A stretch of DNA of 64,000 bases, taken from NCBI RefSeq assembly GCF_010211745.1, contig NZ_PDWQ01000004.1, positions 310,001-374,000 of the forward strand. Reading direction: 5' to 3'. A program made the translations under genes and the position numbers. Positions 19,392 to 61,545 of the stretch are shown in pieces. The notes below the pieces were generated by a model. The model saw only the letters and a list, made by a program, of their open reading frames with translations. It did not search any database and was not told the origin of the DNA. The DNA is from Pseudoxanthomonas kalamensis DSM 18571 (lineage in GTDB: Bacteria; Pseudomonadota; Gammaproteobacteria; Xanthomonadales; Xanthomonadaceae). Position 1 is the stretch's first letter. Each line of letters starts with the position of its first letter.

Positions 19392-19412
19392 TACCAATAG
19401 AGAACCGATTCC

Positions 19413-23433: not shown

Positions 23434-23445
23434 AGGAGAGGTCAC

Positions 23446-24792: not shown

Positions 24793-24803
24793 GACATTCG
24801 GCA

Positions 24804-32098: not shown

Positions 32099-32099
32099 C

Positions 32100-33974: not shown

Positions 33975-33976
33975 CC

Positions 33977-35362: not shown

Positions 35363-36136
35363 TCATTCCTCCTCATTTCCCGCTTTTCCGCCTGCAAACC
35401 TCACCCGGTAATAGAGCAACCCGACAATCTCGTGCAACGCCGATTCTGTCTTCCTGAGTCCCCCACTGCTCGGAATCAGATAGCTCAGTCGCCGGAAGGG
35501 AACGTAGTGCCAGTCGGCTCTAAGGGCACAAACTTCAAACCCGGCCTTGCGCATCGAAAACTCGGCACGAGGCATGTGCATCGCCGAGGTCACTAGTACC
35601 ACGCGACGCGGCAACACAGGGCGCAGCGCTGCGACATTGAATGCGTTCTCCCAAGTGTCGCTGGACTCACCTTCTGTTGAGACCGCATCCGGATCGACGC
35701 CGAACCGAAGTGCGTAGTTGGCCAGCAACCGTCCCTCCGATGCCTCGCCCCCCCAACGACTGCCCCCAACGAAAACAAGCTTGCGTCCTGGCCGCTCTTG
35801 CCACCAAGCGATTGCCTTATCCGCGCGCCTGCGACTGGCAAGACTCAATACCGATATCTGATCGGAATCGTCCGGATAATGGTCGACACCTCCGGAAAGA
35901 ACCACCGCAACACTCGGGGTTTCTCGCACGCAGAAGTCCGGTTTCGGAGGATACTCTTCCAGCCAGCCGACCAGCAGGTTCGCGAACATTGGGGTCATTG
36001 CCAAAAACGAGAATGTCGCCAAACCCACCGCCACGATTCGTACCCAGCGACACCACGCAGCTTGCGCAAACCAGACACTGGCCAAGCCGGCAAGAGCCGC
36101 GACAAGGAGCCAACTGAGCGGAGACAACAGGATCAA
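35363..36136 (-). CDS. YdcF/SanA/ElyC-family protein (DUF218)
   Basis: The 257-aa protein has two N-terminal membrane helices (residues about 5-24 and 30-50) and a DUF218 domain starting PSVAVVLSGGVDHYPDD, with KLVFVGGSRWG, SSDTWENAFNVA and VTSAMHMPRAEFSMRKAGF. ElyC/SanA relatives affect envelope or EPS processes; the reaction is unknown. It is the last gene of the minus-strand block, ending 42 bases from the converging EPS operon. Confidence 0.8.
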   Translation of the reverse strand: MILLSPLSWLLVAALAGLASVWFAQAAWCRWVRIVAVGLATFSFLAMTPMFANLLVGWLEEYPPKPDFCVRETPSVAVVLSGGVDHYPDDSDQISVLSLASRRRADKAIAWWQERPGRKLVFVGGSRWGGEASEGRLLANYALRFGVDPDAVSTEGESSDTWENAFNVAALRPVLPRRVVLVTSAMHMPRAEFSMRKAGFEVCALRADWHYVPFRRLSYLIPSSGGLRKTESALHEIVGLLYYRVRFAGGKAGNEEE

Positions 36137-36185
36137 TTCCGAACCCTCTCAATCACGCGTGTCACTACCCCATAGAGCGCACACA

Positions 36186-36197
36186 TGATGATCATCA
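36186..36197. repeat. Perfect 12-bp palindrome upstream of the ydcF-like gene
   Basis: TGATGATCATCA is its own reverse complement and lies about 50 bases before the ydcF-like start codon. A second dyad, GTGCCGA (36220-36226) and TCGGCAC (36247-36253), lies 23 bases away, just after the flippase stop codon in the direction of transcription. One may be an operator, the other part of a terminator; this is inference. Confidence 0.35.
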
Positions 36198-36262
36198 ATC
36201 CTCTGGAGAGAGCATTAACGTGCCGAGCCGAATGGGGTCTGTTCAATCGGCACGAACTCATC

Positions 36263-37771
36263 TCAACCACGCCCCAATCTTTCAAGCAGCATCCGGCGAA
36301 GTCGCGCATCAAAAGCCAGTACAGGCATCACGTAGAGTACCAGCCATAGCCCGCCTGCCGCGAACAAACGCGCCCATGGCGAAACCAGGCCAAACAAGTC
36401 ACTGCTCTCCGCCACCAATGCAAACAGCGCTGCTGCCGAGAATGACAACGCGAACGCACGCTTGTCGGGGCGATAGCGCAGATCCGCCGGACAAAACGCA
36501 TAGAGGGAAAGGCCCAATACGGCAAAGCTGATCACGGCAGCCCAGGTGGCGCCCATGTACGAGTGCTGGGGAATCAGCCACAGATTGAGAATCACGTTCA
36601 ACGTTGTTGCAGCCAGGGTCAGGTACAAGACCGTTGTTGATCGCTTGTGAAGGAGCAGGCCGTATCCGCCGATCTCCAGCAGCGGATACAGCGCATACAT
36701 CGACCCGATCCAGGCGAATACCGGACCAGAACCAGCCTTGTCTGCGCCGCTGATCGCACGCACCGCCTCACTGCCGATGCATGCGATGGCTACCGCAATC
36801 CCGATTGCCGCATAGGTCATTGGAAACAGTACGCGTCGTTTGAGCTCGCGTACCGCGGCTGCGCCACCGTTCTCCCAACTTCGATTGGCGACCGGGATAA
36901 ATGATTCGGACAGGGCTGTACTCATCAACAGACTGACCTGGAGCGCAAGCGAATAACCGATAGTGAATATGCCTACTGCAGCGAATTCTCCTGTCATACC
37001 CTTCAGCATCAGGCGTCCGATGGATATCAGAAGCACGGTGGCAACCTCGTTGACCACGAGCGGCATTCCATAACGCAGGGTAAGCCGCATCTGCGACCAG
37101 TCGAAAGTACGCGAGAACTCCAGATTTCGACGCACCCAATACACGTAATACGCGACAACCAATGCTGCAGACAGCATTTTCCCGCCATAAGCCGCCACTG
37201 CCGTACGCTCCAGCAGCAACACCGCGCCAACCATCGTCACCAGTTCCAGCCAGCGCCAGACTACCCGGGTAACCATCAATAACGCCGAATGCTCGCCTGC
37301 TCGTAACACCATCTGCACCAGGCTGACGAATACCTGCAGAGGCACCATCAACACCGCCATCCACAGCACCGGGGAGAACGAGGCGCCTCCGAACCAGTCA
37401 AGGCAGGCGAATACCGTTAGCCCGGCAGCCCATATTCCACAGGACACCAGCAACGGCAATAGAAAGAGATTGGTCGCGAAGCCGGACAACCCGCTGGCTT
37501 CGTCGTTATAGGGATAAAACCTCAGGATGGCGTGTTGTGCGCCCAGCTTGGCCACGCCGACCGCCAGCATCAACCAGGTTTCGTAGTAACCGAGGATTCC
37601 GTACTGGGTATTGTCCAGCAGGCGAGTGAGCAGAGGAAACGAAATCAGGCCCGCAAGCATCACCAATACGCTTGCAGTGGAGTAACGCAGGTAATGGGTG
37701 CCGACGCTGGTCTTTTTTGCGGGCAGCGGCGTAACGCCCGCAGCCGCCGGTTCGTCGGAAGGCGCGGTCAT
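36263..37771 (-). CDS. Wzx-type polysaccharide flippase
   Basis: This member of the MOP exporter superfamily has 502 aa from ATG 37771 (MTAPSDEPAAAG), or 519 from ATG 37822. About 12-14 hydrophobic segments are visible, starting YSTASVLVMLAGLISFPLLT, a typical Wzx first helix, with LLDNTQYGILGYYETWLML after it. It should flip the lipid-linked EPS repeat across the inner membrane. It lies on the minus strand behind the third NRPS gene rather than inside the glycosyltransferase operon; it is the only exporter visible near the NRPS genes. Confidence 0.85.
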   Translation of the reverse strand: MTAPSDEPAAAGVTPLPAKKTSVGTHYLRYSTASVLVMLAGLISFPLLTRLLDNTQYGILGYYETWLMLAVGVAKLGAQHAILRFYPYNDEASGLSGFATNLFLLPLLVSCGIWAAGLTVFACLDWFGGASFSPVLWMAVLMVPLQVFVSLVQMVLRAGEHSALLMVTRVVWRWLELVTMVGAVLLLERTAVAAYGGKMLSAALVVAYYVYWVRRNLEFSRTFDWSQMRLTLRYGMPLVVNEVATVLLISIGRLMLKGMTGEFAAVGIFTIGYSLALQVSLLMSTALSESFIPVANRSWENGGAAAVRELKRRVLFPMTYAAIGIAVAIACIGSEAVRAISGADKAGSGPVFAWIGSMYALYPLLEIGGYGLLLHKRSTTVLYLTLAATTLNVILNLWLIPQHSYMGATWAAVISFAVLGLSLYAFCPADLRYRPDKRAFALSFSAAALFALVAESSDLFGLVSPWARLFAAGGLWLVLYVMPVLAFDARLRRMLLERLGRG

Positions 37772-37874
37772 GACAAGAGTGCCGGCTCGCCCGTTCGGAC
37801 CTGCTGAATTCCGTCCAGGCATCCATTGTAGTTAAGCATCCAGGAAGAACGCCGGTCGCGGGTGAAACCGGACA

Positions 37875-40800
37875 TCAGGGCCTGTCAAGTGCTTTGGCAA
37901 TGCGCTGTTTCAGGCAGGCCGCGAGTTCGGGCTGGTCAACGAAGTTGTGATGACGGCCGGGCAACTGACTTATCTCGATGTTTCCGCCGACCCAATTCCG
38001 CCATCCCAGCGACACATCTTCCTCCTCATTCTCAACTCGCGTACGGAACAACTGCATGTCCCCTGCGTATTTCTCCGGAACATAGGTGCTCAAAGCGTGA
38101 TAGTTGGCTTTTTCGACACGATAGAGGCGTACGGCGAGCGGCAGCGCCGCGGATGGACGCCTGTTCCGTCGGTACCAGAATAGAGGCAGCTGCAACAACT
38201 GCAATACCCGCAAGCCAAGCCTATGCCAGAGCCCCATATACTGCGCTGCATCCATTCGCCAAAGTGACCGCCAGAAGTCACCCGGCGAACGATACGCCAT
38301 GTAGTCCGGCCCGAACGTATCGAACATGGCCAACAGCACGACTTCACGTCCTTGTGCATGCAGCCGCCTCGCCGCTTCCAGCGCAAGAATGCCGCCCATG
38401 GAACCACCGCCAAGCAGGAACGGGCCAGCAGGATGGGCGCGCAAAAGGTATCCCACGTACAGGTCAGCCATCTCGGAAATGCTTTGCAGTGGCTGCTTCG
38501 CACCATCCAGTCCGGCTGACTGCAGTCCGTAGACTGGCTGATCGGCATCCAGTTCGTGCAGTAACGAGCAGTAGTTCATGACGTTGCCGCCCACGGCATG
38601 AAACAGGAACAGTGGCGGTTTCGCACCACCGGACTGGAGTGGGACCAGAATCTCTCCGTCTTCATTGCTCGCAGATCGCATTGCAGCGGACACTGCTTCG
38701 GCCAATGCCGCCACGCTGGGGTTCCCGATCAGTGTTGCCAACGGCAAATCGACGCCGTAACGCTGGTGCAGTTCAGTGAACATGCGTACGGCGAGAAGTG
38801 AATACCCTCCCAGCTCGAAAAAATCGTCCTCTACCCCGACTGGACCCGATTGCAATAGTCGCTGCCACAGTTCGCACAACTCTCGTTCCAGAGCATCCCG
38901 TGGCGCAATGCAAGTTCGTTGCGCTACCGCAACATTAGTGGAGGGAGCAGGAAGCGACTTTCGGTCGATCTTGCCATTGGGCGTCTTCGGAAGGTGGCTC
39001 ATCACTTCCACGTACTGAGGGCGCATGTACGCCGGCAATTCTCGCCGCAAGCGCGCATGCAGGGCTTTAGACAGCCCTTCCTGTGGCGCATCACTGCCCA
39101 CATACAACACCAGCACCTGATCTCCGCCCTGCAGCCGCCTGGCTACCGCAACGCATTCGAGTACGCCCTCTTCAGCTGTTGCTGCAGCTTCTATGTCCCC
39201 CGGCTCGATCCGGTAACCACGCAACTTGATCTGCTCATCGACTCGCCCGTGAAAAGAAAGCTGCCCCTCATGCAGGCGGCCAAGGTCTCCGGTGCGATAC
39301 ATCCGGCTGCCATCAGCAATAAACGGATCCGGAATGAAACGCTCTTCACTCAACTCTCTACTATGCAGATAGCCATCCGCCACACCGGCGCCACCTATCC
39401 ATATCTCACCCAATGCGTGTGGTGGCGTTGGCCGGTGCATCGTATCGAGCACATACATTCGTGTACGCGCAATAGGCTGCCCCAATGGCACTGACGTAGC
39501 TTCTAGCTGCATGCGTTGAATGCTCGACCAGACGGTGGTTTCCGTGGGTCCATACATGTTCCAAAGTTCCCGACATTGCGTCAGCAACAGCTTGGCTAGC
39601 GGCAGTGGCAGGGCCTCTCCGCCGACCAGCAAACGCAATGGCGCAAGGACCTGGGTGCGTCCAGTTTCCTGCAGAAGCGCGATCAGCGATGGCGTCGTCT
39701 GGAACACGCTGCAGCCACTGCGTTCGATCAATCTGCACAAAGCTTCGGGATCACGATGCTCGTTGTCATCGGCAATGACCACGCGCCCCCCGCACAGCAA
39801 CGGCAGGTAAAGCTCCAATGCGGCGATGTCGAACGACAACGTTGTGGCAGCACAGATTGCGTCGTCACTGGAGAACCCCGGAGCCTCCCGCATTGCACAC
39901 AAAAAATTCACCAGATTTCGATGAAGTATTCGAACCCCCTTGGGTTCGCCGGTGGATCCCGAGGTATACAGCACATAGGCGAGGTCGTCCGGCCGCACTT
40001 CCGGAAGCTCGACACTCCCCGAGCCGGAAGCCTCAAGCATGTCTACACGCCACAGCTTTCGCCCCTTGCAGAGTGATTCCGGCAATTCAGTGCCTTCTGC
40101 GACGATAATGCGCGCAAGACCTGAATGCTCCGCCATGCGCTGCAGGCGCTGCTCGGGGAATGCGGGATCCAGTGGCACATAAGCAGCACCCGCACGCATA
40201 GCAGCAACCACCGCGACCAGCATGTCGATCGAGCGCGGCAATGCGATACCTATCAGTTCCCCATGCTTGACGCCACTCGCCAGCAAACCAGCAGCAAGCC
40301 GTCTGCTGCGCCGTTCCAATGTCGCATAATCGATCGAACCTCTACCACATTCGACGGCACGACGGCCTGCATGTCGATCAAACGCCGATTTCAACAATGC
40401 CGGAACCGATGCTGTATCGCCAAACTCCGGAATCGAGTCATTTATCAATGCATAATCATTAGCAGGCAGTCGTGAAGTGATGTCCAGCTTTTCCAGGGAC
40501 TCGTTGCAGCCATCGACAATAATGCGCAACAACTCCATGTACATACTTGCCCAGTCACGCACGGTAGACTCATCGTACAGTTCACGCTGATACTGCACTT
40601 CCAGCAAGAGTGCTCCAGGCGTCTGTCGCCAATAAAAACCGAGCTCCCAAGCAGCAGCAATCCGCGGCATAACATTCAGTCCGCACTCCACCCCATCGAA
40701 GTGCAGCCTGTCCATTGCCGGAGCAAGGGTGACGATCGATTCCAGCAAAAGCATGCGGCCGGCTTCGCGCGGCAACTTGAGCGCATCGACGATGCGTCCG

Positions 40801-41888
40801 AGCGAGATATCCTGGTGTTCAGAGGCTTCCTTGAGTTTTTCATGCACGCGGTCGATTAGTGTCGACAAGGGCATGCCTGGGTCAACCTGCACGCGCAACG
40901 GCAAGGTGTTGTCGGTGTCGCCCACCACGCGCGCACCAGCACCTTGCGCTGCTCCCGCGAATGGGATTCCACAGACCAGATCCACTTGCCCGGTCAAGCG
41001 ATGCAGGAGTGCGAAATATGCGCCTAGCAACACCGAAAAACGCGTCACCGTCAGACGCCGAGCCATATCGCGCAGCCCCTGCCACAAGTTCACATCGGCG
41101 TCGATGGAAAAACTGGAAGCAGCAAAGTCGATATGGGCAGTACGCGGTCGATCGGTCGGTAATCGCAATGGCTCTGGCAGCGTCTGGAACTGTTCCCGCC
41201 AATAGCGCAGGCAGCGCACGCCTTCCTCCCCACCACGACGCAAGCGTTCGTTCCGTGCGTATTCTTCCCAGGAATCGGCTGCAGGAATCTTCGCCTGCGC
41301 CTGTGGCGTTTTTGCGTTGTAGTACGCAGCCATTTCCTTCAAGACGATGCGCAGAGACCATCCATCCATCACCAAGTGGTGTGCTGCCATGAACAAGTAG
41401 TGCCGTGTGGCCGACAGTCGGCACAAGCAGGTACGCACCAATGGGGCTTGTCCGAGATCGAATGGCTGCCCCATCTGTTCGCGGCAAAACCCAAGATATT
41501 CCGCCATCGGATCGCCGGAGGTGGACAGATCCATGTGCCGAAGGCGAACACGACGCGCAGGCTCATGGACTTGCGCTTGCCCGTCTGCGGTGAATCTCAC
41601 GGCCAGGGCCTGATGCCTGGCAACCACGGCATCGAAAGCCGCCTGCAACCGTGCAACATCCAGACATCCCTCGAACCTGAGTTCGAAAGCCTCACCAAAC
41701 GCCAATGCTGCCTGTGCGCTATACCGGCTCCCCAGCCATTTTTCCGCCTGAGCATCCGTCAGCGGAAAGCCTTCTCCTGCCTCTTTCCCTTCGCGCCCCG
41801 GCACGTCCCTACCAGTGCCATTCCCCAACGGTCCTTCCCCCTGCTTTAGATGGTCTACGCCGACCCGTGTCGAGTATAGGTGGATCAC
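37875..41888 (-). CDS. NRPS terminal module, C-A-T-TE (Gly-like specificity)
   Basis: The 1337-aa protein has four domains. They are condensation (about 40-470, HHLVMDGWS at about 171), adenylation (about 495-980, YTSGSTGEPKG at about 642, MYGPTETTVW, NGKIDRKSLP), a carrier domain with FFELGGYSLL at about 1024, and a thioesterase with nucleophile in GGGSMGG at about 1161. The specificity code read by hand is DILQLGMVW plus Lys, resembling glycine-activating domains such as DhbF. As the only protein with a thioesterase it should release the product. The start is uncertain: GTG 41888 has a GAGGG run immediately before it, and GTG 41804 is an alternative. GC content looks lower than in the other NRPS genes. 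Confidence 0.9.
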   Translation of the reverse strand: MIHLYSTRVGVDHLKQGEGPLGNGTGRDVPGREGKEAGEGFPLTDAQAEKWLGSRYSAQAALAFGEAFELRFEGCLDVARLQAAFDAVVARHQALAVRFTADGQAQVHEPARRVRLRHMDLSTSGDPMAEYLGFCREQMGQPFDLGQAPLVRTCLCRLSATRHYLFMAAHHLVMDGWSLRIVLKEMAAYYNAKTPQAQAKIPAADSWEEYARNERLRRGGEEGVRCLRYWREQFQTLPEPLRLPTDRPRTAHIDFAASSFSIDADVNLWQGLRDMARRLTVTRFSVLLGAYFALLHRLTGQVDLVCGIPFAGAAQGAGARVVGDTDNTLPLRVQVDPGMPLSTLIDRVHEKLKEASEHQDISLGRIVDALKLPREAGRMLLLESIVTLAPAMDRLHFDGVECGLNVMPRIAAAWELGFYWRQTPGALLLEVQYQRELYDESTVRDWASMYMELLRIIVDGCNESLEKLDITSRLPANDYALINDSIPEFGDTASVPALLKSAFDRHAGRRAVECGRGSIDYATLERRSRRLAAGLLASGVKHGELIGIALPRSIDMLVAVVAAMRAGAAYVPLDPAFPEQRLQRMAEHSGLARIIVAEGTELPESLCKGRKLWRVDMLEASGSGSVELPEVRPDDLAYVLYTSGSTGEPKGVRILHRNLVNFLCAMREAPGFSSDDAICAATTLSFDIAALELYLPLLCGGRVVIADDNEHRDPEALCRLIERSGCSVFQTTPSLIALLQETGRTQVLAPLRLLVGGEALPLPLAKLLLTQCRELWNMYGPTETTVWSSIQRMQLEATSVPLGQPIARTRMYVLDTMHRPTPPHALGEIWIGGAGVADGYLHSRELSEERFIPDPFIADGSRMYRTGDLGRLHEGQLSFHGRVDEQIKLRGYRIEPGDIEAAATAEEGVLECVAVARRLQGGDQVLVLYVGSDAPQEGLSKALHARLRRELPAYMRPQYVEVMSHLPKTPNGKIDRKSLPAPSTNVAVAQRTCIAPRDALERELCELWQRLLQSGPVGVEDDFFELGGYSLLAVRMFTELHQRYGVDLPLATLIGNPSVAALAEAVSAAMRSASNEDGEILVPLQSGGAKPPLFLFHAVGGNVMNYCSLLHELDADQPVYGLQSAGLDGAKQPLQSISEMADLYVGYLLRAHPAGPFLLGGGSMGGILALEAARRLHAQGREVVLLAMFDTFGPDYMAYRSPGDFWRSLWRMDAAQYMGLWHRLGLRVLQLLQLPLFWYRRNRRPSAALPLAVRLYRVEKANYHALSTYVPEKYAGDMQLFRTRVENEEEDVSLGWRNWVGGNIEISQLPGRHHNFVDQPELAACLKQRIAKALDRP

Positions 41889-42179: not shown

Positions 42180-43880
42180 ATGATTTCAGTGCTCCCCCGA
42201 ACCCTTCATCGCCTGAGCCTCCTGCTGGCCGCGTTGTGCCTGCTGGCACCCGTTGCGAACGCCGAATCCTTGGGCGTGTGCAGCTCTTTCTATAACTCCA
42301 GCTTCACCCTGACCGAAGGCAAGGTCAATCCGACCATGACTTCACTGGCAAAGCCCGCCAAGGGCACTGTGCTCAAAGAGCCGAATTTCAACACCTGCCT
42401 GGTCCGGGCCACCGATCATTCGTCGGAGGGGCTGGGAAGTTTCGCTCGTAACGATTATTCCCGCCGCCAAGCGTTCAATGCGAACAACACCTACTTCATC
42501 AGCTACACCCTCAACGGCTCGTGGCATCTCTACAACGCGGACACTCTGGCTCATATCCGCCAGCTGGGACCGTCTTCGGGACAGCGCCTGGCCGGCGATG
42601 CCGAGCCGCACTGGCATCCGACAAACCCCAATATCCTCTACTACCTTCCCACCAATGGCGGCACCAAGCTGTACCAACTGAATGTGCAAACCAATACGCC
42701 AAGCCTGGCGGCCGACTTCGCCGGCAAGTTGCCATCATGGGGAGCGAGCGCAGCGCACATCTGGACCAAATCGGAAGGCTCGCCATCGGCCGATGGTCGC
42801 TATTGGGGCTTTCAGGTCGAAGACAGCAATTTCAAACTACTGGGATTCATGGTCTGGGATCTCCAGGAGAACAAGCTGATAGGTTCGCGTCAACACACCA
42901 GCCGACCGGACCATTCGAGCATGTCCGCAGCAGGGCGTTGGTTCGTCACGTCTTCAGACAGTGAAGGCACGTGGGCATGGTCGCCAAATTTCTCCGTGAA
43001 GAAAAAACTTTTGCACAAGAGTGAGCACTCCGACTTGGCGCTGGGACCCAATGGTGAGGACTACTATGTCTCCATCGACTACCAGAGCTCGTCCGGAGAT
43101 GTGTTCTTCGTCGATATCGACGCCTGTCCATCGGTACCAGCCAGCGCCACCAATGCCGATGTGTGCCCGCGAACCGTGTTATTTCCCACCTACATCAACG
43201 GTGCAGCTACCGCCATGCATTTTTCCGGTAAGGGCTTCAACAAGCCCGGCTGGTTGGTGTTAAGCACTTATGCCGCCTCCAATTCGCGCGATGGCAGTCG
43301 ACCTTGGTACACGGACAAGGTTTATGCGATCGAATTGAAGAAAAATCCGCTTATATACACGCTGGCGTATACCCGTCGCGTTGGTGGCGGAACTTATTGG
43401 AGCGAGCCACATGCGACGGTGAGCCGTGACTTCACCCGCATCGCCTTCAACAGCAACTGGGGTGTCAGCGGCGACGATATCGACACCTATATCATTCATA
43501 TCCCGAAATCAGCTCTGCCCAGCGGAACCACCACGGCCAGCCGAGTCGTGACAGGCGGAAACATGCCTACCCGCCAGTCGTCGTCCAGTGGTTACACGAC
43601 GGGCGCGTCCTCCGTTTTGCAGCGCAACGCCAGCACCGCAGTCACTACGACAGAAGAGAGCGCGACAACAACCGATACGGAAATCGTCGCTGATACCGAA
43701 GCACTGCCTGCTCCTGCCGCCATCCGAGTCGGGAACCCACATGCCCAGCGTCTGGCCCGTGTCGCTGCAGCCGAAGCCCGTCGTCTTTTCTCTACCCTCC
43801 TGTCGTTACGCAATTCCTCATGGCTGAATCGTTGGCTGTACCGGGAAGAGGACGAACTGGACGAGCCAACTTACCGATAA
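42180..43880 (+). CDS. Secreted beta-propeller protein of unknown function
   Basis: The 566-aa precursor has a clear signal peptide (LLLAALCLLAPVANA, cleavage near residue 28). Repeating blade-like segments follow, for example GDAEPHWHPTNPNILYYLP, SPSADGRYWGFQVED and HATVSRDFTRIAFNSNW, as in TolB-like or oligogalacturonate-lyase-like propellers. From about residue 445 a Ser/Thr-rich linker leads to a short charged C-terminus. No PEP-CTERM tail is present. It is the only plus-strand gene among the NRPS genes and has its own promoter, splitting NRPS3 from the rest. It might bind or cleave the uronate-containing EPS; this is inference. Confidence 0.65.
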   Translation: MISVLPRTLHRLSLLLAALCLLAPVANAESLGVCSSFYNSSFTLTEGKVNPTMTSLAKPAKGTVLKEPNFNTCLVRATDHSSEGLGSFARNDYSRRQAFNANNTYFISYTLNGSWHLYNADTLAHIRQLGPSSGQRLAGDAEPHWHPTNPNILYYLPTNGGTKLYQLNVQTNTPSLAADFAGKLPSWGASAAHIWTKSEGSPSADGRYWGFQVEDSNFKLLGFMVWDLQENKLIGSRQHTSRPDHSSMSAAGRWFVTSSDSEGTWAWSPNFSVKKKLLHKSEHSDLALGPNGEDYYVSIDYQSSSGDVFFVDIDACPSVPASATNADVCPRTVLFPTYINGAATAMHFSGKGFNKPGWLVLSTYAASNSRDGSRPWYTDKVYAIELKKNPLIYTLAYTRRVGGGTYWSEPHATVSRDFTRIAFNSNWGVSGDDIDTYIIHIPKSALPSGTTTASRVVTGGNMPTRQSSSSGYTTGASSVLQRNASTAVTTTEESATTTDTEIVADTEALPAPAAIRVGNPHAQRLARVAAAEARRLFSTLLSLRNSSWLNRWLYREEDELDEPTYR

Positions 43881-43944
43881 CTCATACAAGCACAAGAAAC
43901 GCAACCCGCCTACGAGACACACAATAGGCCTGCCAGAGTCTGAT

Positions 43945-45657: not shown

Positions 45658-45697
45658 CACTGGCCGGCCTCGCATTTCCGGCTGGAGGTCGACGAAC

Positions 45698-47261: not shown

Positions 47262-47485
47262 TGAAGGCAATTCCCAGTCGCAGAGAACATTTTCAGCAAT
47301 GCGTGGAATTCGTTTCGCTTGCATGGCTTCAACCACTGCATAACCGAAACATTACCCATTCAAATCGCCCGTCTTTATCTCGACCATGTCCAGCATCCCC
47401 ATGCAGAAGTCGTTCCCATCATCCCGAGCCTGACGCTACCCCACACATTACGACCACAGGCTTCACGCGCGCTCAACCACCTCAC
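47262..47485. other. Non-coding gap between NRPS2 and the hydrolase pair
   Basis: The 224 bases are lower in GC than the NRPS genes upstream. I find no convincing hairpin terminator or promoter. Small open frames here are not supported by a ribosome site or recognisable protein. Confidence 0.4.
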
Positions 47486-53400: not shown

Positions 53401-54004
53401 CCTCGGCCAGCGCATAGTCCGAGAAACTGTCCGCCGGCGGCAGCATCGCCACCTCCCCGGCGGCTGCCGCATAGGCCGCGCCGAGCTCGCGCACGATCAC
53501 CCACCACGACCAACCGTCGCAGACGATGTGGTGCGCATGCATCAGCAGCACGTGTTCCTGTGTCCCCAGCCGCAGCAATTCGGTGCGGAATAACCGTCCA
53601 TGCAGCAGATCGAACGGCGTTTCCACCCCGGTGCGGCGGCGCTCCGCCCATTCCGCGGCGCGGGCCTCGTCGTCGAGCACGGACAGGTCGGCGAACGGCA
53701 GCGGCAGCGGCGCCGGCTGCAAGATACAGATCGTCTCGCCATCGGGACCGAAACAGGAGCGCAAGGCATCATGGCGCTGCACGACCGCCTGCAACGCGTC
53801 CTGCAGGCGCTGCGCATCCAGCTCGCCCCGCAAATGCAGCGAGACGGACTCGTTGTAGGCCAGCGACGCCTCCTGTCCGAGCTGCGTCGCCAGCCAGACC
53901 TCGCGCTGCGGCTCGGTGGTCGGAACCACTCGGGCCAGCAGTCCGTCGGCGAAAGGATCGTAATCGACGGAGCGGCGCTGCCGCTCTGTCACCGCACTAT
54001 TCAT
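47486..54004 (-). CDS. Two-module NRPS, C-A-T-C-A-T (both Gly-like)
   Basis: The 2172-aa protein has C1 (about 25-460, HHIVCDGWS at about 158), A1 (about 485-985, YTSGSTGRPKG at about 636), T1 (FFEAGGHSLL at about 1036), C2 (about 1085-1515, HHVIWDGWS at about 1235), A2 (about 1540-2055, YTSGSTGKPKG at about 1713) and T2 (FFELGGHSML at about 2101). Hand-read codes are DILQMGLVW and DILQLGMVW, both close to glycine codes. There is no epimerase, methyltransferase or thioesterase, and it ends with a short basic tail (RMKRWLGWR). Its start overlaps the PKS-NRPS stop by four bases, so C1 should accept the aminotransferase product. GC content falls sharply in the last several hundred coding bases. 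Confidence 0.93.
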   Translation of the reverse strand: MNSAVTERQRRSVDYDPFADGLLARVVPTTEPQREVWLATQLGQEASLAYNESVSLHLRGELDAQRLQDALQAVVQRHDALRSCFGPDGETICILQPAPLPLPFADLSVLDDEARAAEWAERRRTGVETPFDLLHGRLFRTELLRLGTQEHVLLMHAHHIVCDGWSWWVIVRELGAAYAAAAGEVAMLPPADSFSDYALAEALHPAGPQYRDDERYWLSRFAGETPVLELPTDRPRPARRTFASRREDYLLDADLVAAVRRLGARRGASLFATLLGGFATLLSRIAGQDEVVVGIPAAGQSVDGHDHLVGHCVNLLPLKFGFQSGDSFASVLDGAQSTLLDAIEHQRYTFGTLLKKLRVERDPARLPLVSVMFNIDQALELEKSGFPGLKLDFSTNARSCENFELSINAVQVDGKLRLETQYNTALFDAETVRCWLSAFEALLRSACEAPETRVSELNLIGRESFAELAALQPTAVAFDRQCRMHELFERQCDRTPDRPAVCADDASLSYRDLELHANRIAHLLRANGVRKGTLVGLAVDRGADMLAALLGILKAGAGYVPLDPQFPAERLAYMAGDAGLAALVTQRKHAAQFDLRGRPILALDALVDELAAAADARPGRDTDAADPESPAYVIYTSGSTGRPKGVQVPHRAVSNFITAMQAEPGLGQEDRLVAVTTLSFDIAVLELMLPLSVGAEVILAGKDTVIDGVALAELLRATDATAMQATPASWRLLLEAGWEGRSGFKAMCGGEPLPPDLAQALLPLCAELWNLYGPTETTVWSTAMRVRAGQGAAPDIHIGRPIANTQVWILDENAQPCLRGVPGEICIGGEGVTLGYLDRPELTADRFLPDRFADPQRGFGTGIAAPTLYRTGDRGRWRSDGNLEHLGRLDFQVKVRGYRIELGEIESQLLAHPAIQRAVAMAREDRPGDVRLVAYLVQVPGQEPDDAALAAHLKLNLPDYMVPQHFVRLPAITLLPNGKVDRKALPAPEPVLEAALTETVRVAESPHDELEARVLKAMEEILGRPGLGLDDGFFEAGGHSLLAAQLCARLGRDLDVPVPLRQLFDAPTARRLSGALRALVARPEERASTALAVPRRADQSTAPMTLMQQRLWVFEQMEPGTVTYNTPSAHRLHGPMNEQAFERAFQEMVRRQASLRTILVADGDSAVQKVLDHVDAPLLPATDLSHLPEPERMAALMEDLEAQTARPFALDQAPLFRAKFYKLAEDDHVLYFMTHHVIWDGWSFDVLYVEMSALYEAFAAGRPSPLPELETSYADFAAWHLQRLEGDALQQQIRHWTGHLAGDLEPLHLPEDKPRPARSTGNGGLDWVHVDTTTTEALRQVGTRAGATLFMTLLAAYYVLLHRLSGQDDLVVGLPYRNRHTEALEKVMGFFVNVLPLRCRLDPSMPFLELLKEIKGGVVEAFEYPDVPFEHLVRELKVQRDPGRSPIYQALFSFQDVRARNLRWGELQHEHLLMFQKGMSHDLGIWFLEHPAGLSGAMGFNADILTDEGARSIADRFTTLLASLADQPEQAIGDAEILSAQDRAKLDEWNATAMALPAERTTHALLHAQALRTPGRTALRSGGQVLDYAQLQARSCRIADALAAHGVVPGDLVGICLDRHVDLVATMLAVWRAGAAYVPLDPAYPPDRLRFMAEDANLRLVVSEGSLAEPLQWSRERVLLLDADAASIESAPAIPAIHDATLGAADGTAYVIYTSGSTGKPKGVCVPHGAVVNFLASMAREPGLQADDRLLAVTTTSFDIAVLELFLPLSVGAEVVLASREDALDGQALAGLIRKRGITVMQATPSSWRLLLEADWRGAKSFKALCGGESLPQDLAAELLSRCPQLWNMYGPTETTVWSTCSRVVAQDGGAPDIHIGKPIANTTVWVVDPRGQLCAPGVVGELYIGGEGVTQGYLGRPELTAEKFVPDRFSSTASDDARLYRTGDRARWRGDGVLEHLGRLDHQVKIRGYRIELGEIESRLTADPSVSRALAIVREDRPGDVRLVAYIVAAPGQRIDEVGLSASLRQALPGYMVPQHLVQLPAIPLLPNGKIDRKSFPLPGGMVESGPVSTASHADARVAYLVKVWSEILGTEAGSEDNFFELGGHSMLAVQMSNRVLRETGVRLRLLSLATQTLAQAASDLPESASVVDTPMQQFPTVDLWSRMKRWLGWR

Positions 54005-57000
54005 GCCCCACCTTCGGCCTTCAGGTACTGCCCCGGCTGTTCCGGATCGGGAACATACCAGCCCGGATGGCCTTGCGGATCGCGACCCAGGCGCGCGCCT
54101 GGCACCACCGGACGGGAAGCATCCATCACCGTCCTGGCGTTGGCCGCGTGCCGCGGCAGGAAGCCGGCTTCCTGCAACTCCATGACCGACTGCTTGAATG
54201 CATCGATGATGGCGCGGAAATCAGCCTCGCTGTGCGCGGTGGTGAAGAAGCAGGGGAAGTTGTCCAGGATGTGAACGCCGCGGCTGCGCATCATCGCGAA
54301 CAGCAGATCCTGCAACGGATGGTCCTCTTCGAAGTGGGTGCGCCACAGCGAAGCGAAGTGCTTGATCCGGACCGGTGCGCCGACCTCGGCGCAGAAGGCA
54401 TTGATTTCGCCTGCCATCGCCGCGGTACGCTCGTTGAGCCGCTGCTGCATGGCTGCGCCGCTCTGCTTCATGTGCAGCAACGAGGCCCGGGCCGCCGCCA
54501 GCGTCAACGGATGGCGGACGAAGGTGCCGGCGAAATAGGTCACGCCCACGGTCGGAATGGAATCGTCGCCGTAATCCCAGGCGCCGCCGTCCAGCGCATC
54601 CATGAATTCGCGCTTGCCGGCCATCGCGCCGATCGGGAAACCGCCGCCGATCACCTTGCCGTAGGTGGCGATATCGGCGCGGATGCCAAACAGTGCCTGC
54701 GCTCCGCCGGGATGCGAACGGAAACCGGTGATGACCTCGTCGAAGATCAGCGCGGCGCCGGATTCGGCGGTGATCTTGCGCACCTCCTTCAGGAACTCGA
54801 CCGGCTGGAAGTCCGGGCGCCGGCTCTGCACCGGCTCCACCAGCACCGCGGCCAGTTCGTGCGCACGCTCGCGGATCACCTGCAACGCTTCCGGCGTACC
54901 ATAATCCAGCACCAGCACCTTCTCCGCGGTATTGCGCAGGATCCCCGGCGCCGCCGGCACCGCGCGCAACTTCTTGGTGCCGCGCACGATCACTTCGTCG
55001 TTGATACCGTGATAGGAACCTGAGAACACTGCGATGGTTTCACGTCCGGTCACCGTACGCGCGATGCGCATCGCGCCCAGCACCGCTTCCGAACCGGTAT
55101 TGCACAGCGCCGCACGCTCGTGCCCGGTCAGCTCGCAGATCAGTTCGGACACCTCGCCCGCCAGCGGATGCATCGGGCCGATCTCGTAGCCGGCGTCGAC
55201 TTGCTGCTTGACCGCATCGATGACGAAATCCGGCTGCCAGCCGAACAGGCTGGTACCGAAGCCGTTCAGCGCATCGACGTACTCGTGGCCGTCGATGTCC
55301 CACACGTGCGAACCCTTCGAGCGTTCGACCACGATCTGGTAGACGATCTCCTTGGTCAGCGGGCGGAACCCGGTCACCACCCGTGGATCGGCCATGTGGC
55401 CGCGATGCTGGCGGGTATAGGCCTTGGACTTCGGCGTCCGCGCCAGATAGCGCTGGATGAAGGCATCCAGGCGTTCGCGCTGATGCGCATCCAGCTCGAT
55501 CCCGCCGGCACTGTCGATACGGGCGATGGCGCCAAACGCCTTCTTCACGTCGTAACGGGTATGCGCCAGCGCAGCTTCCTCGTCGCCTGAGGCGGGCGCC
55601 GCAGCGTTCGTCGCCGGCGGCGGGATGGTGGTGGCCTCCGGTTGCATCGGCACGGCCGCAGTCGCGGTCGTGGCGGGCACGGCAGTCGCAGCCTGCCCCC
55701 CGAGTAGAGCGAGCTGATGCGCCATCAACTGCATCTGCTGCTGGATCACGTCGCGGACAAGATCACCGGAAGCCGCCGCGCCTCCCGACTGCAATCCAGG
55801 CATGGCCACGGCCACGGCCACGGCCGGCGACGGCGAGACCGGAGCGGCCAATGACGATGCGACTGCAGGCACCGGGGACAGGACGGCCGCTGCCGCTTCG
55901 GCAGGCAGTTGCGCATCCAGGCTGGCGGCCAGCGACTGCAGGCTGGAGCATTCGCCCATCAGCTGGCGGAACGTGATCTTGACCGGGAAGGTCTTCTGCA
56001 GCTGCAGCGCGACTTGGGTCAGCATCAGGCTGTCCAGACCCAGTTCGATGAAGTTCGCGCCTTCGTCGGCCTCGGCCAGGTCGAAACCGGCCACATCCTC
56101 GAACACGTCCTTCAGCTGTGCGATCAGGCCCGGCATGCGGTCGGCGGCAGCAGTGGCAGGGGGTACGGACATCGACGACTCCGGAACAGGGGTGGAAACG
56201 GCAACGGGAAAAGGAATGATCTTGCCGACCGCAGCGGCTGGCTCTACCCAGTAACGCTTTCTGTCGAAAGGATAGGTCGGCAGGCGCAAACGCCGGCGAC
56301 GGCTTCGGCGGTCAAAACCGGCCGGATCGGGACCGGTGCCATGGCACCAGAGCCTGCCGGCAGCTACCAGCAGACTGCCGGGCTCGTCGTCGCTGTTATC
56401 GGTCAACGACGCCACCACGACGGTACGGCTCTTCTGCACTGCCGGATGCTGGCGCGACAACGTCGACAGCGTGGTACGCGGACCCACTTCCAGCAGGCAG
56501 CGCGATGGCAACTCGTCCTGAAGCAGCTGCGACAGCGCGGCGGCGAAGCGAACCGGCTCGCGCAGGTGGCGCGCCCAGTACTCCGGCGAGACGGCCTGCT
56601 CCGGATCCAGCCAGTCGCCGCTGGCAGTCGAGATGATCGGCAACCGTGGCGCATGCCGGACGATGGCTTCCACCTCGGCGCGGAACGGTTCGACCACCGC
56701 ATCCATCATCGAAGAATGGAAGGCGTGCGAAGTCTTCAGCGCGCGGCAGGCGATATCCTCGGCTTCCAGGCGTTTCTGGAATGCGGCGACGTCCTCGCGC
56801 GGGCCGGCCACCACACAGGCGCCGGGCGCGTTTTCGGCCGCCAACGACAGCGTGGAAGGCAACCGTGGCAACAGCGCATCCAGCGGCAGCCGCACCGACA
56901 GCATCGCGCCGGCCGGCTGCGCCTGCATCATGCGCCCGCGGGTGGCGACCAGCCGCATCGCGTCGGCCAGTTCGAACACCCCGGCCAGCGTCGCGGCGAC

Positions 57001-60000
57001 GAATTCGCCGACGCTGTGGCCGATCATCGCCACCGGCTCGACGCCTTGCGCCATCCACCAGCGCGCCAGCGAGTATTCGATAGCGAAGATCGTCGGCTGC
57101 ATCACTTCGGTCGGCAGCAACGCTTCGGCATCGTCGCCGAATGCCAGCGCCCGCAGGTCCATGCGGTCCTGCAAGGCGTCGGCGCAGGCATCGAAGGCCT
57201 CGCGGAACGCCGGTTCGCGCGCATACAGCTCGCGCCCCATGCCGGCGTACTGCGAGCCCTGGCCGGGGAACAGGAACACCACCTCGCCGGCATGCGCCGG
57301 GCGGCTGCGCGCCGCCATCGACGTGGTCTCGGCGCTGCGCAGGCTGGCGACGGCCTCCTCCGCCGTACTTGCCGTCACGGCGAGACGGTGCCCGAACGCT
57401 TTGCGGCCCGCGGCCAGCGTCCAGGCCACATCAGCCAGGTTGACCTCCGCATCCTGCTGCAGATGTGCAGCCAGCCGCTCGGCGGCCTGTTCCAGCGCCG
57501 CCGGCGTGCGCGCCGACAGCACCAGCAACTGCGGGCCGGAAGCGGGATCGGACGCCGGCAACTCCGGCGCCTGCTCCATCACCACATGAGCATTGGTGCC
57601 GCCAACCCCGAACGAACTGACCCCGGCCCGGCGCGGTTGTCTCGGTTCGGCGGGCCAGTCGTGCAACTCGGCGTTGACCACGAACGGCGAATGTTCGAAG
57701 TCGATGTGCGGATTCGGCTGCCGGTAATGCACCGTGGCCGGGATGCGTCCTTCGGCCAGGGCGAGTGCAGTCTTGATGGTACTGGCCGCACCGGCGGCCA
57801 TCAGCATGTGGCCGACATTGCTCTTGACCGAACCCAGCCGACAGAACCCGCGGTCGGTAGTCTGCATGCGGAAGGCGCGGGTCAAGCCTTCCACTTCGAT
57901 CGGATCGCCGACCGGGGTGGCGGTACCGTGGGTTTCCACGTAGCCGACGTCGCGCGGATCGATGCCGGCATCGGCATGCGCCATCGCGATCACCGCGGCC
58001 TGGCCATCGCTGCTGGGCGCGGTGAAACTGGCCTTGTTGCCGCCGTCGTTGTTCAGCGCGCGGCCGCGGATCAGTGCGAACACCGGGTTGCCGTCGGCCA
58101 GCGCGTCGGACAGTCGTTTCAGCAGCACGACGGCCGCACCGTCGCTGAACACCGTGCCCTTGGCGTCGGCGTCGAAGCTGCGGGTGTGCCCGTCCGGCGA
58201 CAGCATGGCGCCTTCCTGGTACAGGTAACCGCTGCGCACCGGGTGGGTGATCGCAATGCCGCCGGCCAGGGCCATATCGCACTGGCCCGAGCGCAGGCTG
58301 TCGACCGCCTGGCAAATCGCCACCAGCGAGGTCGAGCAGGCGGTATGCACGCTGACCGCCGGGCCGGTCAGGTTGAGCTTGTGCGCCACCCGGGTGGCAA
58401 TGTAGTCCTTCTCGTTGCCCAACATGACCTGGAACTCGCCGACACGTTCGACCAGATCCGGGTGCGCAGACACGTTGCGCTGGAAATAGCTGGCGTTGTA
58501 CATGCCGGCGAACACGCCCACCGGCCCGTTATCGGCGGCATCGGGCACGTGGCCAGCGCGTTCGATGCATTCCCAGCACAGCTCCAGGAACACCCGCTGT
58601 TGCGGGTCCATCAGTTCGGCCTCGCGCGGGGAAATACCGAAAAAACCGGCATCGAACAGGTCGTAGCCGTCGAACACCCCACGCGCCGGCACGTAGTCCG
58701 GGTCATCGCGCAGACCGGCCGGCACGCTGGCGTCGAGTTCGCCGGGGCCGAAACGGGTGATCGAGTCGCGCCCTTCGCACAGGTTGCGCCAGAACGCCTC
58801 CACGTCGTCCGCGCCGGGGAAGCGGCCGGCCATCGCCACGATCGCGATCGGGTCGTCGTGGCCGTCGCCTGCGCGCCCGCGCGCCAGACGGCGCGCATCT
58901 GGTGCAGCGTCGGTATCCTCGCTCAAGGCGCGCGCCAACGCCGCTGGCGCCGGATCGCGGAACAGGGTCAGGGTGGACAGCCGGCCAATGCCTTCGCGGC
59001 GGATCTGCTCTAGCGCGCGCGCCGCCAGCAGCGAGGTGCCGCCGAGGTCGAAGAAATTGTCGTGGCGACCGATCTTCTCCAGGTCCAGCGTCTCGGCCAG
59101 GATTCGACACAGCGCCGCCTCGGTGTCGCTCTGCGGCGGCTCGTAGGCGCCCAGCCAGTCGGGGCGTTGGCGTCCCGGTGCCGGCAAGGCGCGTCGGTCC
59201 AGCTTGCCATTGGGCGACAGCGGCAACGATGCCATTTCCACATAAGCCACTGGTAGCATGTACTCGGGCAGCTGCGCGGACAGATGACTGCGCAAGGCAT
59301 CCACCGATATCGACTCGGCGGGGTCACGTGGCGAATAGTAGGCCACCAGCCGCTTCAGCCCCGGACTATCCTCGCGCGCCAGCACGCCGGCCTCACGCAC
59401 GCCGGGAACGGCCATCAATTGCGCTTCGATTTCGCCCAGCTCGATGCGGTAGCCGCGGATCTTGACCTGGAAATCCTGGCGACCCAGATACTCCAGCGTT
59501 CCGTCCGGCAGCCAGCGCCCGAGGTCGCCGGTGCGGTACATGCGCGCACGACCGCCCACGAACGGATCGGGCAGGAAGCGCTCGGCGCTTTGCTCGGGGC
59601 GCTTCAGGTAACCGCGTGCCAACACCGGGCCCGCCAGGTACAACTCACCGACCACGCCACGCGGCACGGGATTGCCCTGCCCATCCAGCACGTAGACGCG
59701 GGCATTGGCGATCGGCTTGCCGATCGTCGGCAGCCGCGGCCAGTCCTGCGGATTTTCTGTCAGGGTCAGCGCGGTGACCACATGGGTTTCGGTCGGTCCG
59801 TAATGATTGTGCAGACGGCAGCCCGGCAGCTGCTCGAAGAAGCGGACGATCTTCGGCTCGATCCGCAGCTGTTCGCCAGCGGTGATGATTTCCCGCAGCT
59901 CACACTGCAGGCTTTCGCCCCCCGCGCTTGCCGCCAGATGGCTCTCCATGCCTTCGGCCAGCATCTGCAGGGCGAAGTATGGCAGGAACAGGCGCTCGAT

Positions 60001-61545
60001 GCGATGAGCCCGCACGAACTGGAACAGGTCGCTGCCACTGAGCCGGGTGTCCTGGTCGACCATGTGCAGCTCGCCGCCGGCAGCCAGGGTGGCGAAGGTC
60101 TCCTGGAAAGCCACGTCGAAGCCCAACGCGGCGAACTGCAGCGTGCGCAACGGCGCATCCGCGCCCGGTTCGCGCAACTGCCACTGGATCAGGTTGACCA
60201 GCGGCCCGTGCGGCATCGCCACGCCCTTGGGCTGGCCGGTGGAACCGGAGGTGTACAGCACGTAGGCCAGATGCTCCGCATCGGGCGCACACTCTTCCGA
60301 CCCAAGGTCGTGCGAAGGCAGCCCCGCCCATTCCGGCGGCAGCGCGCACAGGTCGATCACCACCAGTTGCGCCGGCAGTTCGCCCAGCGCCTCGGCAGCC
60401 GGACGTTCCATCCCGGACATCGTCAGCAGCACGCGGGGCTCGCTGTCGGCCAGCGTGTAGGCCAGCCGATCGGCCGGATAGGTCGGATCCAGCGGCACGT
60501 AGGCGCCGCCGGCCTTGAGCACCGCCAGCATGCCCAACACCACCTCGATGCCGCGCTCGACGTAGATAGCCACCCGCTGGTCGGAGCCGACGCCATGCTG
60601 GTGCAAGCCGCGTGCCAGGCGATTGGCGCGCTCGTTCAGTTCGGCGTAGCTCAGCCGGCGCTCGCCGTGCACCACGGCAATCGCATCGGGCGTGCGCGCC
60701 GCCTGCGCTTCGAACAACCGGTGCACGCCAGCAACGGATTCGAAAGCCTGCTCGGTCGCGTTTCCGAATTCGATCGCTTCACGGCCGGCGGCGGCGTCGA
60801 GCATCGGAATCGCATCCAACCGGGTGCCGGCCTGTGCTGCGGCCATACCTTCGAACAGATGCTGCCAGCAACGCAGATAGCGTCGGACGGTATCCACATC
60901 GAACAGTGCGGCATCGTATTGCAACGTGGCTGCGAGTCCCTGCCCTTCCTGCCGCACATGCAGCAACATCTCCGCCTGGCGCAATGCATCCGCGCCCAAG
61001 ACCACGTCGTCACCGCAGACAAAGGCTTGCCGGAACAGCGGCTGCGACGACGATACCGACGGGTGACGCAGCAGCGACTCCAGTTCGTCAAGCGACTGGG
61101 GGGCGTTGGCGAGCATCGCCTCGACCTGCGCCTGCACCCCGGCGATCACCGCCGGCACTTCCGTTGTCGCAGACAGTTCCAACCGCAACGGCAATGCATT
61201 CCGCGCGCCGGCATCGTCGACGCCTGCAGACCCGATCGTCGCGTCGGTGCCCAGCAGCAGCTCGTCGCGACCGGACAAGCGGGACAACAGCAACGCCCAC
61301 GCCGTCAGCAGGACCGTTTGCGGCGCGCAACCGGCATTGCCGGCCATCTCGAAAACGGCTGCGGCAACCGGATCATCCAGCCGGAATTCGAGGCTTTCCA
61401 TTCGCGCGGTCGCAACGCCACGCGGACGATCAGCCGGCACTTCAAGTACGCCGGCCGCGGCCTGAGCGATGGCCGCCCTGTAGTCTTCCGGATTCGACAG
61501 TCCCGAGTTCACGCTATCCCCCAAAGCGGACCAATCCTGATCCAT
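54001..61545 (-). CDS. Hybrid NRPS-PKS with aminotransferase: partial C-A-T-KS-AT-ACP-AMT
   Basis: This 2514-aa protein starts with the C-terminal half of a condensation domain (about 1-215, no HHxxxDG). An A domain follows (about 265-785, YTSGSTGQPKG at about 430; code DVQFIAHVV plus Lys, proline-like), then a carrier (FFDLGGTSLL, about 833). Next come a ketosynthase (Cys in VHTACSTS, about 1069; HGTATPVGD; SNVGH), an acyltransferase (GQGSQYAGM; GHSVGE about 1509; HAFH about 1606, malonyl type) and an ACP (LGLDSL, about 1838). After an Ala/Pro/Val-rich linker (about 1880-1985) lies a class III aminotransferase with PLP lysine in YGKVIGGGFPIG (about 2296). The KS-AT-ACP-AMT order recalls MycA/ItuA of iturin-type synthetases, where the AMT makes a beta-amino group. 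It has no reductive domains. It is the first gene of the minus-strand assembly line. Confidence 0.93.
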   Translation of the reverse strand: MDQDWSALGDSVNSGLSNPEDYRAAIAQAAAGVLEVPADRPRGVATARMESLEFRLDDPVAAAVFEMAGNAGCAPQTVLLTAWALLLSRLSGRDELLLGTDATIGSAGVDDAGARNALPLRLELSATTEVPAVIAGVQAQVEAMLANAPQSLDELESLLRHPSVSSSQPLFRQAFVCGDDVVLGADALRQAEMLLHVRQEGQGLAATLQYDAALFDVDTVRRYLRCWQHLFEGMAAAQAGTRLDAIPMLDAAAGREAIEFGNATEQAFESVAGVHRLFEAQAARTPDAIAVVHGERRLSYAELNERANRLARGLHQHGVGSDQRVAIYVERGIEVVLGMLAVLKAGGAYVPLDPTYPADRLAYTLADSEPRVLLTMSGMERPAAEALGELPAQLVVIDLCALPPEWAGLPSHDLGSEECAPDAEHLAYVLYTSGSTGQPKGVAMPHGPLVNLIQWQLREPGADAPLRTLQFAALGFDVAFQETFATLAAGGELHMVDQDTRLSGSDLFQFVRAHRIERLFLPYFALQMLAEGMESHLAASAGGESLQCELREIITAGEQLRIEPKIVRFFEQLPGCRLHNHYGPTETHVVTALTLTENPQDWPRLPTIGKPIANARVYVLDGQGNPVPRGVVGELYLAGPVLARGYLKRPEQSAERFLPDPFVGGRARMYRTGDLGRWLPDGTLEYLGRQDFQVKIRGYRIELGEIEAQLMAVPGVREAGVLAREDSPGLKRLVAYYSPRDPAESISVDALRSHLSAQLPEYMLPVAYVEMASLPLSPNGKLDRRALPAPGRQRPDWLGAYEPPQSDTEAALCRILAETLDLEKIGRHDNFFDLGGTSLLAARALEQIRREGIGRLSTLTLFRDPAPAALARALSEDTDAAPDARRLARGRAGDGHDDPIAIVAMAGRFPGADDVEAFWRNLCEGRDSITRFGPGELDASVPAGLRDDPDYVPARGVFDGYDLFDAGFFGISPREAELMDPQQRVFLELCWECIERAGHVPDAADNGPVGVFAGMYNASYFQRNVSAHPDLVERVGEFQVMLGNEKDYIATRVAHKLNLTGPAVSVHTACSTSLVAICQAVDSLRSGQCDMALAGGIAITHPVRSGYLYQEGAMLSPDGHTRSFDADAKGTVFSDGAAVVLLKRLSDALADGNPVFALIRGRALNNDGGNKASFTAPSSDGQAAVIAMAHADAGIDPRDVGYVETHGTATPVGDPIEVEGLTRAFRMQTTDRGFCRLGSVKSNVGHMLMAAGAASTIKTALALAEGRIPATVHYRQPNPHIDFEHSPFVVNAELHDWPAEPRQPRRAGVSSFGVGGTNAHVVMEQAPELPASDPASGPQLLVLSARTPAALEQAAERLAAHLQQDAEVNLADVAWTLAAGRKAFGHRLAVTASTAEEAVASLRSAETTSMAARSRPAHAGEVVFLFPGQGSQYAGMGRELYAREPAFREAFDACADALQDRMDLRALAFGDDAEALLPTEVMQPTIFAIEYSLARWWMAQGVEPVAMIGHSVGEFVAATLAGVFELADAMRLVATRGRMMQAQPAGAMLSVRLPLDALLPRLPSTLSLAAENAPGACVVAGPREDVAAFQKRLEAEDIACRALKTSHAFHSSMMDAVVEPFRAEVEAIVRHAPRLPIISTASGDWLDPEQAVSPEYWARHLREPVRFAAALSQLLQDELPSRCLLEVGPRTTLSTLSRQHPAVQKSRTVVVASLTDNSDDEPGSLLVAAGRLWCHGTGPDPAGFDRRSRRRRLRLPTYPFDRKRYWVEPAAAVGKIIPFPVAVSTPVPESSMSVPPATAAADRMPGLIAQLKDVFEDVAGFDLAEADEGANFIELGLDSLMLTQVALQLQKTFPVKITFRQLMGECSSLQSLAASLDAQLPAEAAAAVLSPVPAVASSLAAPVSPSPAVAVAVAMPGLQSGGAAASGDLVRDVIQQQMQLMAHQLALLGGQAATAVPATTATAAVPMQPEATTIPPPATNAAAPASGDEEAALAHTRYDVKKAFGAIARIDSAGGIELDAHQRERLDAFIQRYLARTPKSKAYTRQHRGHMADPRVVTGFRPLTKEIVYQIVVERSKGSHVWDIDGHEYVDALNGFGTSLFGWQPDFVIDAVKQQVDAGYEIGPMHPLAGEVSELICELTGHERAALCNTGSEAVLGAMRIARTVTGRETIAVFSGSYHGINDEVIVRGTKKLRAVPAAPGILRNTAEKVLVLDYGTPEALQVIRERAHELAAVLVEPVQSRRPDFQPVEFLKEVRKITAESGAALIFDEVITGFRSHPGGAQALFGIRADIATYGKVIGGGFPIGAMAGKREFMDALDGGAWDYGDDSIPTVGVTYFAGTFVRHPLTLAAARASLLHMKQSGAAMQQRLNERTAAMAGEINAFCAEVGAPVRIKHFASLWRTHFEEDHPLQDLLFAMMRSRGVHILDNFPCFFTTAHSEADFRAIIDAFKQSVMELQEAGFLPRHAANARTVMDASRPVVPGARLGRDPQGHPGWYVPDPEQPGQYLKAEGGA

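Follow-up and report, generated by a model that had tools for sequence, protein, structure and literature searches.

In a 64,000-nucleotide stretch of the Pseudoxanthomonas kalamensis DSM 18571 genome (contig NZ_PDWQ01000004.1, positions 310,001 to 374,000; hereafter the window), we found a hybrid non-ribosomal peptide synthetase-polyketide synthase (NRPS-PKS) line lying between an exopolysaccharide (EPS) operon and EpsB, the XrtA-type initiating glycosyltransferase. We put forward, tentatively and giving it not quite an even chance, that this line is a recurrent and self-contained module of XrtA-type EPS loci in Lysobacteraceae, equipped with its own phosphopantetheinyl transferase (PPTase). 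Its product would most likely be an EPS substituent made before export by the Wzx-type flippase, or else an obligate companion of the polysaccharide.

The evidence that carries this reading is the linkage of the line to EpsB. We analyzed 198 genomes from the family, scoring a line where the aminotransferase end of NRPS1 was matched at 500 bits or more, and leaving out of the count four genomes with weaker matches of 327-362 bits (G109, G184, G162 and G236). The aminotransferase-type line is present in 41 genomes belonging to 12 genera, and EpsB_2 is over cut-off in 69 of the 198. The two occur together in 40 of the 41 line-bearing genomes, the exception (G223) being 85% complete, against EpsB in 29 of the 157 other genomes (Fisher p = 6e-22, a value that ignores kinship). 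When line and EpsB share a contig they are 6.1-16.2 kb apart in 34 of 35 genomes, and five genomes have them on separate contigs. The gene order NRPS-hyd2-hyd1-GINT-Wzx-DUF218 recurs in G129, G095, G148 and G237, among others. Moreover, among the fetched regions of 5-60 kb, 14 of the 24 of NRPS type contained a PPTase, versus none of the 19 others. The placement of the line at the EPS locus is not chance: the line occurs in 12 family genera and at beta-proteobacterial loci, which rules out a chance insertion confined to one strain. The conserved co-occurrence of NRPS and EPS genes that the sequence-only reading had proposed as a check is therefore borne out. Its suggestion that the product is attached to, or exported with, the polysaccharide gains support for a functional tie from the linkage across these genera, whether the product is attached or merely co-exported.

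The three NRPS/PKS proteins called from the sequence were all recovered as open reading frames (ORFs) at their expected places and sizes (Table 1). Those of NRPS1 and NRPS2 share a 4 bp overlap. Along the minus strand the order is NRPS1, NRPS2, hyd2, hyd1 and the GINT1_N-type protein; a plus-strand gene lies between these and NRPS3, which is followed by Wzx and the DUF218 gene. The catalytic residues and motifs that we checked in the ketosynthase (KS), acyltransferase (AT), condensation (C), adenylation (A), carrier (T) and thioesterase (TE) domains are all intact, making these the complete modules of a hybrid NRPS-PKS line. They include the KS Cys and His residues, the AT Ser, the aminotransferase Lys, three HHxxxDG motifs, A3 and A10, and the TE Ser (a pattern search served for the motifs, and visual inspection for the carrier-protein Ser of NRPS2 and NRPS3). 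From first to fourth, the A-domain codes are DVQFIAHVVK, DILQMGLVWK, DILQLGMVWK and DILQLGMVWK; we take the first to be a Pro code and the others to be Gly-like, and the AT motif HAFH is presumably of malonyl type. Because Pfam matches only the C-terminal half of the first C domain of NRPS1, Pro is probably the starter unit. The predicted order is then Pro, malonate, amination, Gly, Gly, Gly and release by the thioesterase, with Pro-(beta-amino C2 unit)-Gly-Gly-Gly as the likely product. Calculated from the predicted domains, its linear acid would be C13H23N5O5, with [M+H]+ at 330.177, and would add 311.159 to a sugar. This colinear order is the one proposed in the sequence-only reading, and it agrees with the Pfam domains, the A-domain codes and the motifs.

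In the whole 3.03 Mb host genome, three condensation domains reach E 1e-40. The line in the window has just as many full C domains and is thus seemingly the sole NRPS line of the genome; five of the six carrier-domain matches in the genome also fall at it. Among relatives, the first A-domain code is mostly Pro or Val-like and the second Gly or Ser-like, with a few others. The thioesterase is not general: many relatives end in C-T, with the A domain missing or degenerate, before hyd2/hyd1, and others end in C-A-T.

Three XrtA-type signature proteins of the locus are over cut-off: EpsB_2 (546 bits, cut-off 393), the export protein (203, cut-off 180) and the chain-length protein (379, cut-off 279). 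The EPS sugar would consist of amidated amino-sugar uronic acids, which suits the TviB-type dehydrogenase, the two AsnB proteins and the deacetylase of the operon. EPS operons had been claimed on both sides of the line. That on the left is indeed an XrtA-type operon, but the right side yielded EpsB as its sole EPS gene, and the 20 kb past the PPTase gave no tblastn match to the EPS proteins of the window. The claimed flippase and YdcF-like gene were both found, as a Wzx-type and a DUF218 protein, respectively. It is also true that the window contains no PPTase; one is nevertheless encoded about 360 bp past its edge, with EpsB standing between it and NRPS1, and the argument that had been drawn from a missing PPTase to a link with the polysaccharide therefore fails.

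Table 1. Features of the NRPS-PKS line and of its surroundings (positions in the window; the PPTase lies past its end).
Feature	Position	Strand	Description
EPS operon	17994..35320	+	left of the line; TviB-type UDP-HexNAc dehydrogenase, epimerase, export protein, chain-length protein, tyrosine kinase, outer-membrane protein, deacetylase, glycosyltransferases, two AsnB-type amidotransferases, Wzy/O-ligase
DUF218/YdcF-like protein	35363..36136	-	
Wzx-type flippase	36263..37822	-	52 bp downstream of NRPS3, same strand
NRPS3	37875..41888	-	1337 aa; C-A(Gly-like)-T-thioesterase (Pfam, motifs, codes)
PL22-like beta-propeller protein	42180..43880	+	probably secreted (signal peptide by eye); conserved in relatives
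GINT1_N-type protein	43945..45675	-	C-terminal propeller like GH43/62/130; N-terminal alpha/beta domain
hyd1	45698..46537	-	alpha/beta hydrolase, Cys nucleophile; distant from TIGR03100
hyd2	46473..47336	-	alpha/beta-hydrolase fold without nucleophile; distant from TIGR03101
NRPS2	47486..54004	-	2172 aa; C-A(Gly-like)-T-C-A(Gly-like)-T (Pfam, motifs, codes)
NRPS1	54001..61545	-	2514 aa; vestigial half C, A (Pro-like), T, KS, AT (malonyl-type), T, pyridoxal phosphate-dependent aminotransferase (Pfam, motifs, codes)
Small conserved protein beside EpsB	61929..62657	+	weak DnaJ-like match below cut-off
EpsB	62664..63983	-	XrtA-type initiating glycosyltransferase, TIGR03013
PPTase	L054:363-1169 (363-1169 past window end 64000)	-	PF01648, 50.4 bits (cut-off 25); behind EpsB

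The two proteins encoded after NRPS2, hyd1 and hyd2, are candidates for the step that follows assembly. In hyd1 the Cys of the motif GxCS(G/A) and a His are invariant in all 27 aligned homologues, while the nucleophile position of hyd2 is occupied by Arg in 15 and by Gly in 8 of 23. The true start of hyd1 is probably the Met at residue 20 (about 46480), shared by 24 of the 27 homologues. The sequence-only reading had called the pair exosortase-associated hydrolases. A related hydrolase pair is present, but the resemblance is weak, with scores of 57.5 bits to TIGR03100 (cut-off 168.45) and 61.5 bits to TIGR03101 (cut-off 202.75), and PF09721 detects no exosortase in the host genome. An exosortase-dependent role is accordingly not supported. 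Exosortase is over cut-off in 13 of the 198 family genomes; in the five of these that bear the line (G069, G080, G114, G147 and G167) it lies on a different contig from it.

From these data we infer the following mechanism. The line would load Pro, extend it by malonate, aminate the beta-keto group and add three Gly. The thioester would then be released or transferred with the help of hyd1, as a Cys-hydrolase, and of hyd2, as its inactive partner, both acting on the carrier-bound chain, and in the lineage of the window the thioesterase would take part as well. Finally, the peptide would be put on the repeat unit before Wzx export, or else accompany the EPS obligatorily.

The EpsB loci that lack the aminotransferase-type line bear on what this position in the genome may hold. 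In the 29 EpsB genomes concerned, whose regions were read by tblastn, ten have an NRPS line in which no aminotransferase was detected (G110, G062, G148, G052, G054, G058, G095, G104, G129 and G237); the contig of G054 stops inside the KS, and G104 shows neither KS nor AT. If no other enzyme acts in G110, G062, G148, G129 and G237, where no aminotransferase domain was detected, the beta-keto group would stay. G141, a 75% complete genome, combines an A domain, hyd1, hyd2 and GINT with a ligase. Another 16 of the 29 hold an acyl ligase module, composed in 13 cases of an acyl carrier protein (ACP), the ligase, an NAD-synthase-like protein and AsnB; G050, G180 and G232 have a ligase beside EpsB together with AsnB, the last without an ACP match. 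Neither module occurs in G116 and in G070 (contig of 4.8 kb). In sister genomes, the alternative module beside EpsB (L056:2379-10536 and like regions) comprises AsnB, ACP, the acyl ligase, methyltransferase-like and NAD-synthase-like proteins, and one protein with no Pfam match. These ligases are not true TIGR03098 proteins: no match in the 198 genomes is over that cut-off, and in G164, where NCBIfam identified the module, the ligase falls short of the TIGR03098 cut-off and is matched better by a model for fatty-acid ligases in general. The small DnaJ-like gene beside EpsB occurs in loci of both the NRPS and the ligase type.

EPS loci without NRPS genes, which the sequence-only reading had named as a sign of chance insertion, do therefore exist in relatives, but most of them hold the ligase-based module instead. 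Overall, 62 of 63 uncut EpsB loci have a module close to EpsB, either an NRPS line (partial in one case) or one of the acyl ligase type; this count excludes five contig-split genomes and G070, and in it the 34 linked lines were placed by coordinates, with some regions unread. In a quick EpsB tree with 49 rows, parsimony gives 6 changes of module type, of which starred branches force at least 3; two rows with neither module, one duplicate and short EpsB matches were dropped, and G141 and the named loci were scored as NRPS. Judging from this tree, the NRPS and ligase modules have been swapped several times at EpsB. Strict exclusivity of the two modules is ruled out by G075, G209, G069 and G114, which hold both.

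Such turnover might mean that the EpsB side is a variable island into which unrelated modules, the NRPS among them, recombine, linkage being uninformative on function. We consider this decidedly unlikely. It would account for the repeated changes of module content and for the four genomes with both modules, but not for the finding that all but one of the uncut loci hold one of just two kinds, both adenylation-based and mostly with carrier proteins. Moreover, in G108, G162, G184 and G236 the condensation domains of other lines lie off the EpsB contig (among the matches listed, at most seven scored per genome). The constancy of EpsB as a neighbour, between PPTase and NRPS1, could instead point to a peptide that primes or caps the chain, as an amino-acyl unit attached to the first, lipid-linked sugar that EpsB makes. 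This is very unlikely in our view: no acceptor specificity is known, and NRPS and ligase types form no separate EpsB clades.

Beyond the family, we collected 47 named related loci from Lysobacteraceae (including L015 of Pseudoxanthomonas wuyuanensis and L008 of P. dokdonensis, whose genomes share their EpsB coordinates with G205 and G238, respectively, of the same genus as the window), Rhodanobacteraceae and several beta-proteobacterial groups; several of the contigs are short, and absences carry little weight. EpsB_2 is over cut-off somewhere in 42 of the 47 genomes, hyd1 or hyd2 were seen in 33 loci, a PPTase in 32, and matches to one or more of 19 EPS-type queries in 26. In L033, L046, L023, L028 and L048 the beta-proteobacterial line is a single giant ORF beside a resistance-nodulation-division (RND) pump; L033 additionally has a TetR regulator, a cupin_8 protein and a PPTase. 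In the family of G027, a Leptothrix metagenome-assembled genome, the line is present in 16 of 299 genomes and EpsB_2 in 100, with both in 12 of the 16 (p = 6e-4).

Several observations weigh against the line being a dedicated part of the EPS locus. Only 2 of these 12 line-EpsB_2 pairs are within 20 kb, the remainder being 44-46 kb apart (3), 87-102 kb apart (2), farther on the same contig (3) or on other contigs (2). The line is therefore closely tied to EPS genes in Lysobacteraceae, whereas in parts of the beta-proteobacteria the tie is loose or missing. A universal linkage is ruled out by the branch with the RND pump: in 5 of the 47 loci this pump stands beside the line, and the stretches examined showed no EPS gene. 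Neither hyd1 nor hyd2 is seen in 14 of the 47, some on short contigs. Within Lysobacteraceae, the line of G060 is 688 kb from an EpsB whose locus carries the ligase module, and four genomes combine both modules. Finally, the thioesterase of the window lineage could simply release a free acid, and no enzyme that would have to join the peptide to the sugar was identified.

It is a serious possibility, albeit one we regard as somewhat improbable, that the product is a free, diffusible peptide (a signal, a metal binder or a matrix-organising agent), co-regulated with the EPS and acting unbound in the biofilm. The thioesterase fits this, as does the beta-proteobacterial form, where an RND pump, a TetR-type regulator and a PPTase accompany the line as they would for an ordinary secreted metabolite. 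However, among the selected window ORFs scanned between 10253 and 63983 no peptide exporter was seen, only the Wzx-type flippase, and the near-constant linkage to the initiating glycosyltransferase is more than co-regulation alone requires.

Two further genes lie between hyd1 and NRPS3. The PL22-like protein is matched by neither Pfam nor NCBIfam at 1e-3, and its predicted fold is that of the PL22 oligogalacturonate lyase family; His 411, a candidate for one of the PL22 metal ligands, is replaced by Gln in 3 of 10 homologues. Its gene is duplicated within the locus in L008 and L031. For the GINT1_N-type protein, all fold matches among those listed cover the propeller and none resolves the N-terminal part.

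Known systems share parts of this arrangement. TIGR03098, TIGR03100/03101 and TIGR03108 travel together as the exosortase-A small-molecule module, which resembles the present locus in its related hydrolase pair and AsnB, its kind of EPS locus and its adenylation chemistry; here, however, a full modular NRPS-PKS replaces the one ligase of TIGR03098, hydrolases and AsnB are below cut-offs, and there is no exosortase. Mycosubtilin/iturin and microcystin-type lines (MycA, McyE) have a KS-AT-ACP-aminotransferase arrangement feeding an NRPS. The PKS-aminotransferase plan is the same, whereas ours has an amino-acid start, a short Gly-rich peptide and an EPS context.

AlmEFG of Vibrio cholerae transfers glycine onto lipid A via a carrier protein (PMC12930378). 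This likewise decorates a surface glycoconjugate with glycine through adenylation and a carrier protein, but involves glycine or diglycine, discrete proteins, another transferase, and lipid A instead of EPS. The mutanoclumpins of a Streptococcus mutans PKS-NRPS bind the cell surface and promote biofilm (PMC12403116); this hybrid line with biofilm-promoting products fits a free peptide, and differs from ours in that its products are free metabolites and that the abstract names no polysaccharide locus. In Aquincola, several floc-deficient mutants carried insertions in an epsB2 gene (PMC9850573). Papers on the Leptothrix/Sphaerotilus sheath were considered as a possible precedent; among those listed, none contained the word nonribosomal. 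In the literature searched, with subscription papers mostly outside it, the papers listed gave no description of the system and no compound for the cluster, which is not proof of novelty.

A more specific form of the EPS-substituent reading, which we consider rather unlikely, is that a nonribosomal polyketide-peptide would be grafted onto a secreted polysaccharide by an acyltransferase that has a Cys nucleophile and is paired with an inactive twin. In this view one position in the EPS locus would accept either of several exchangeable adenylation modules, and the module present would determine the decoration. The data suggest that relatives of the exosortase-A hydrolase pair may form an acyl-transfer unit. 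Sister species with alternative modules at the same locus offer a direct way to test the question. If true, the association would provide a genetic handle on peptide-modified matrices and would connect research on natural-product assembly lines with that on exopolysaccharide biosynthesis, from which it is usually kept separate.

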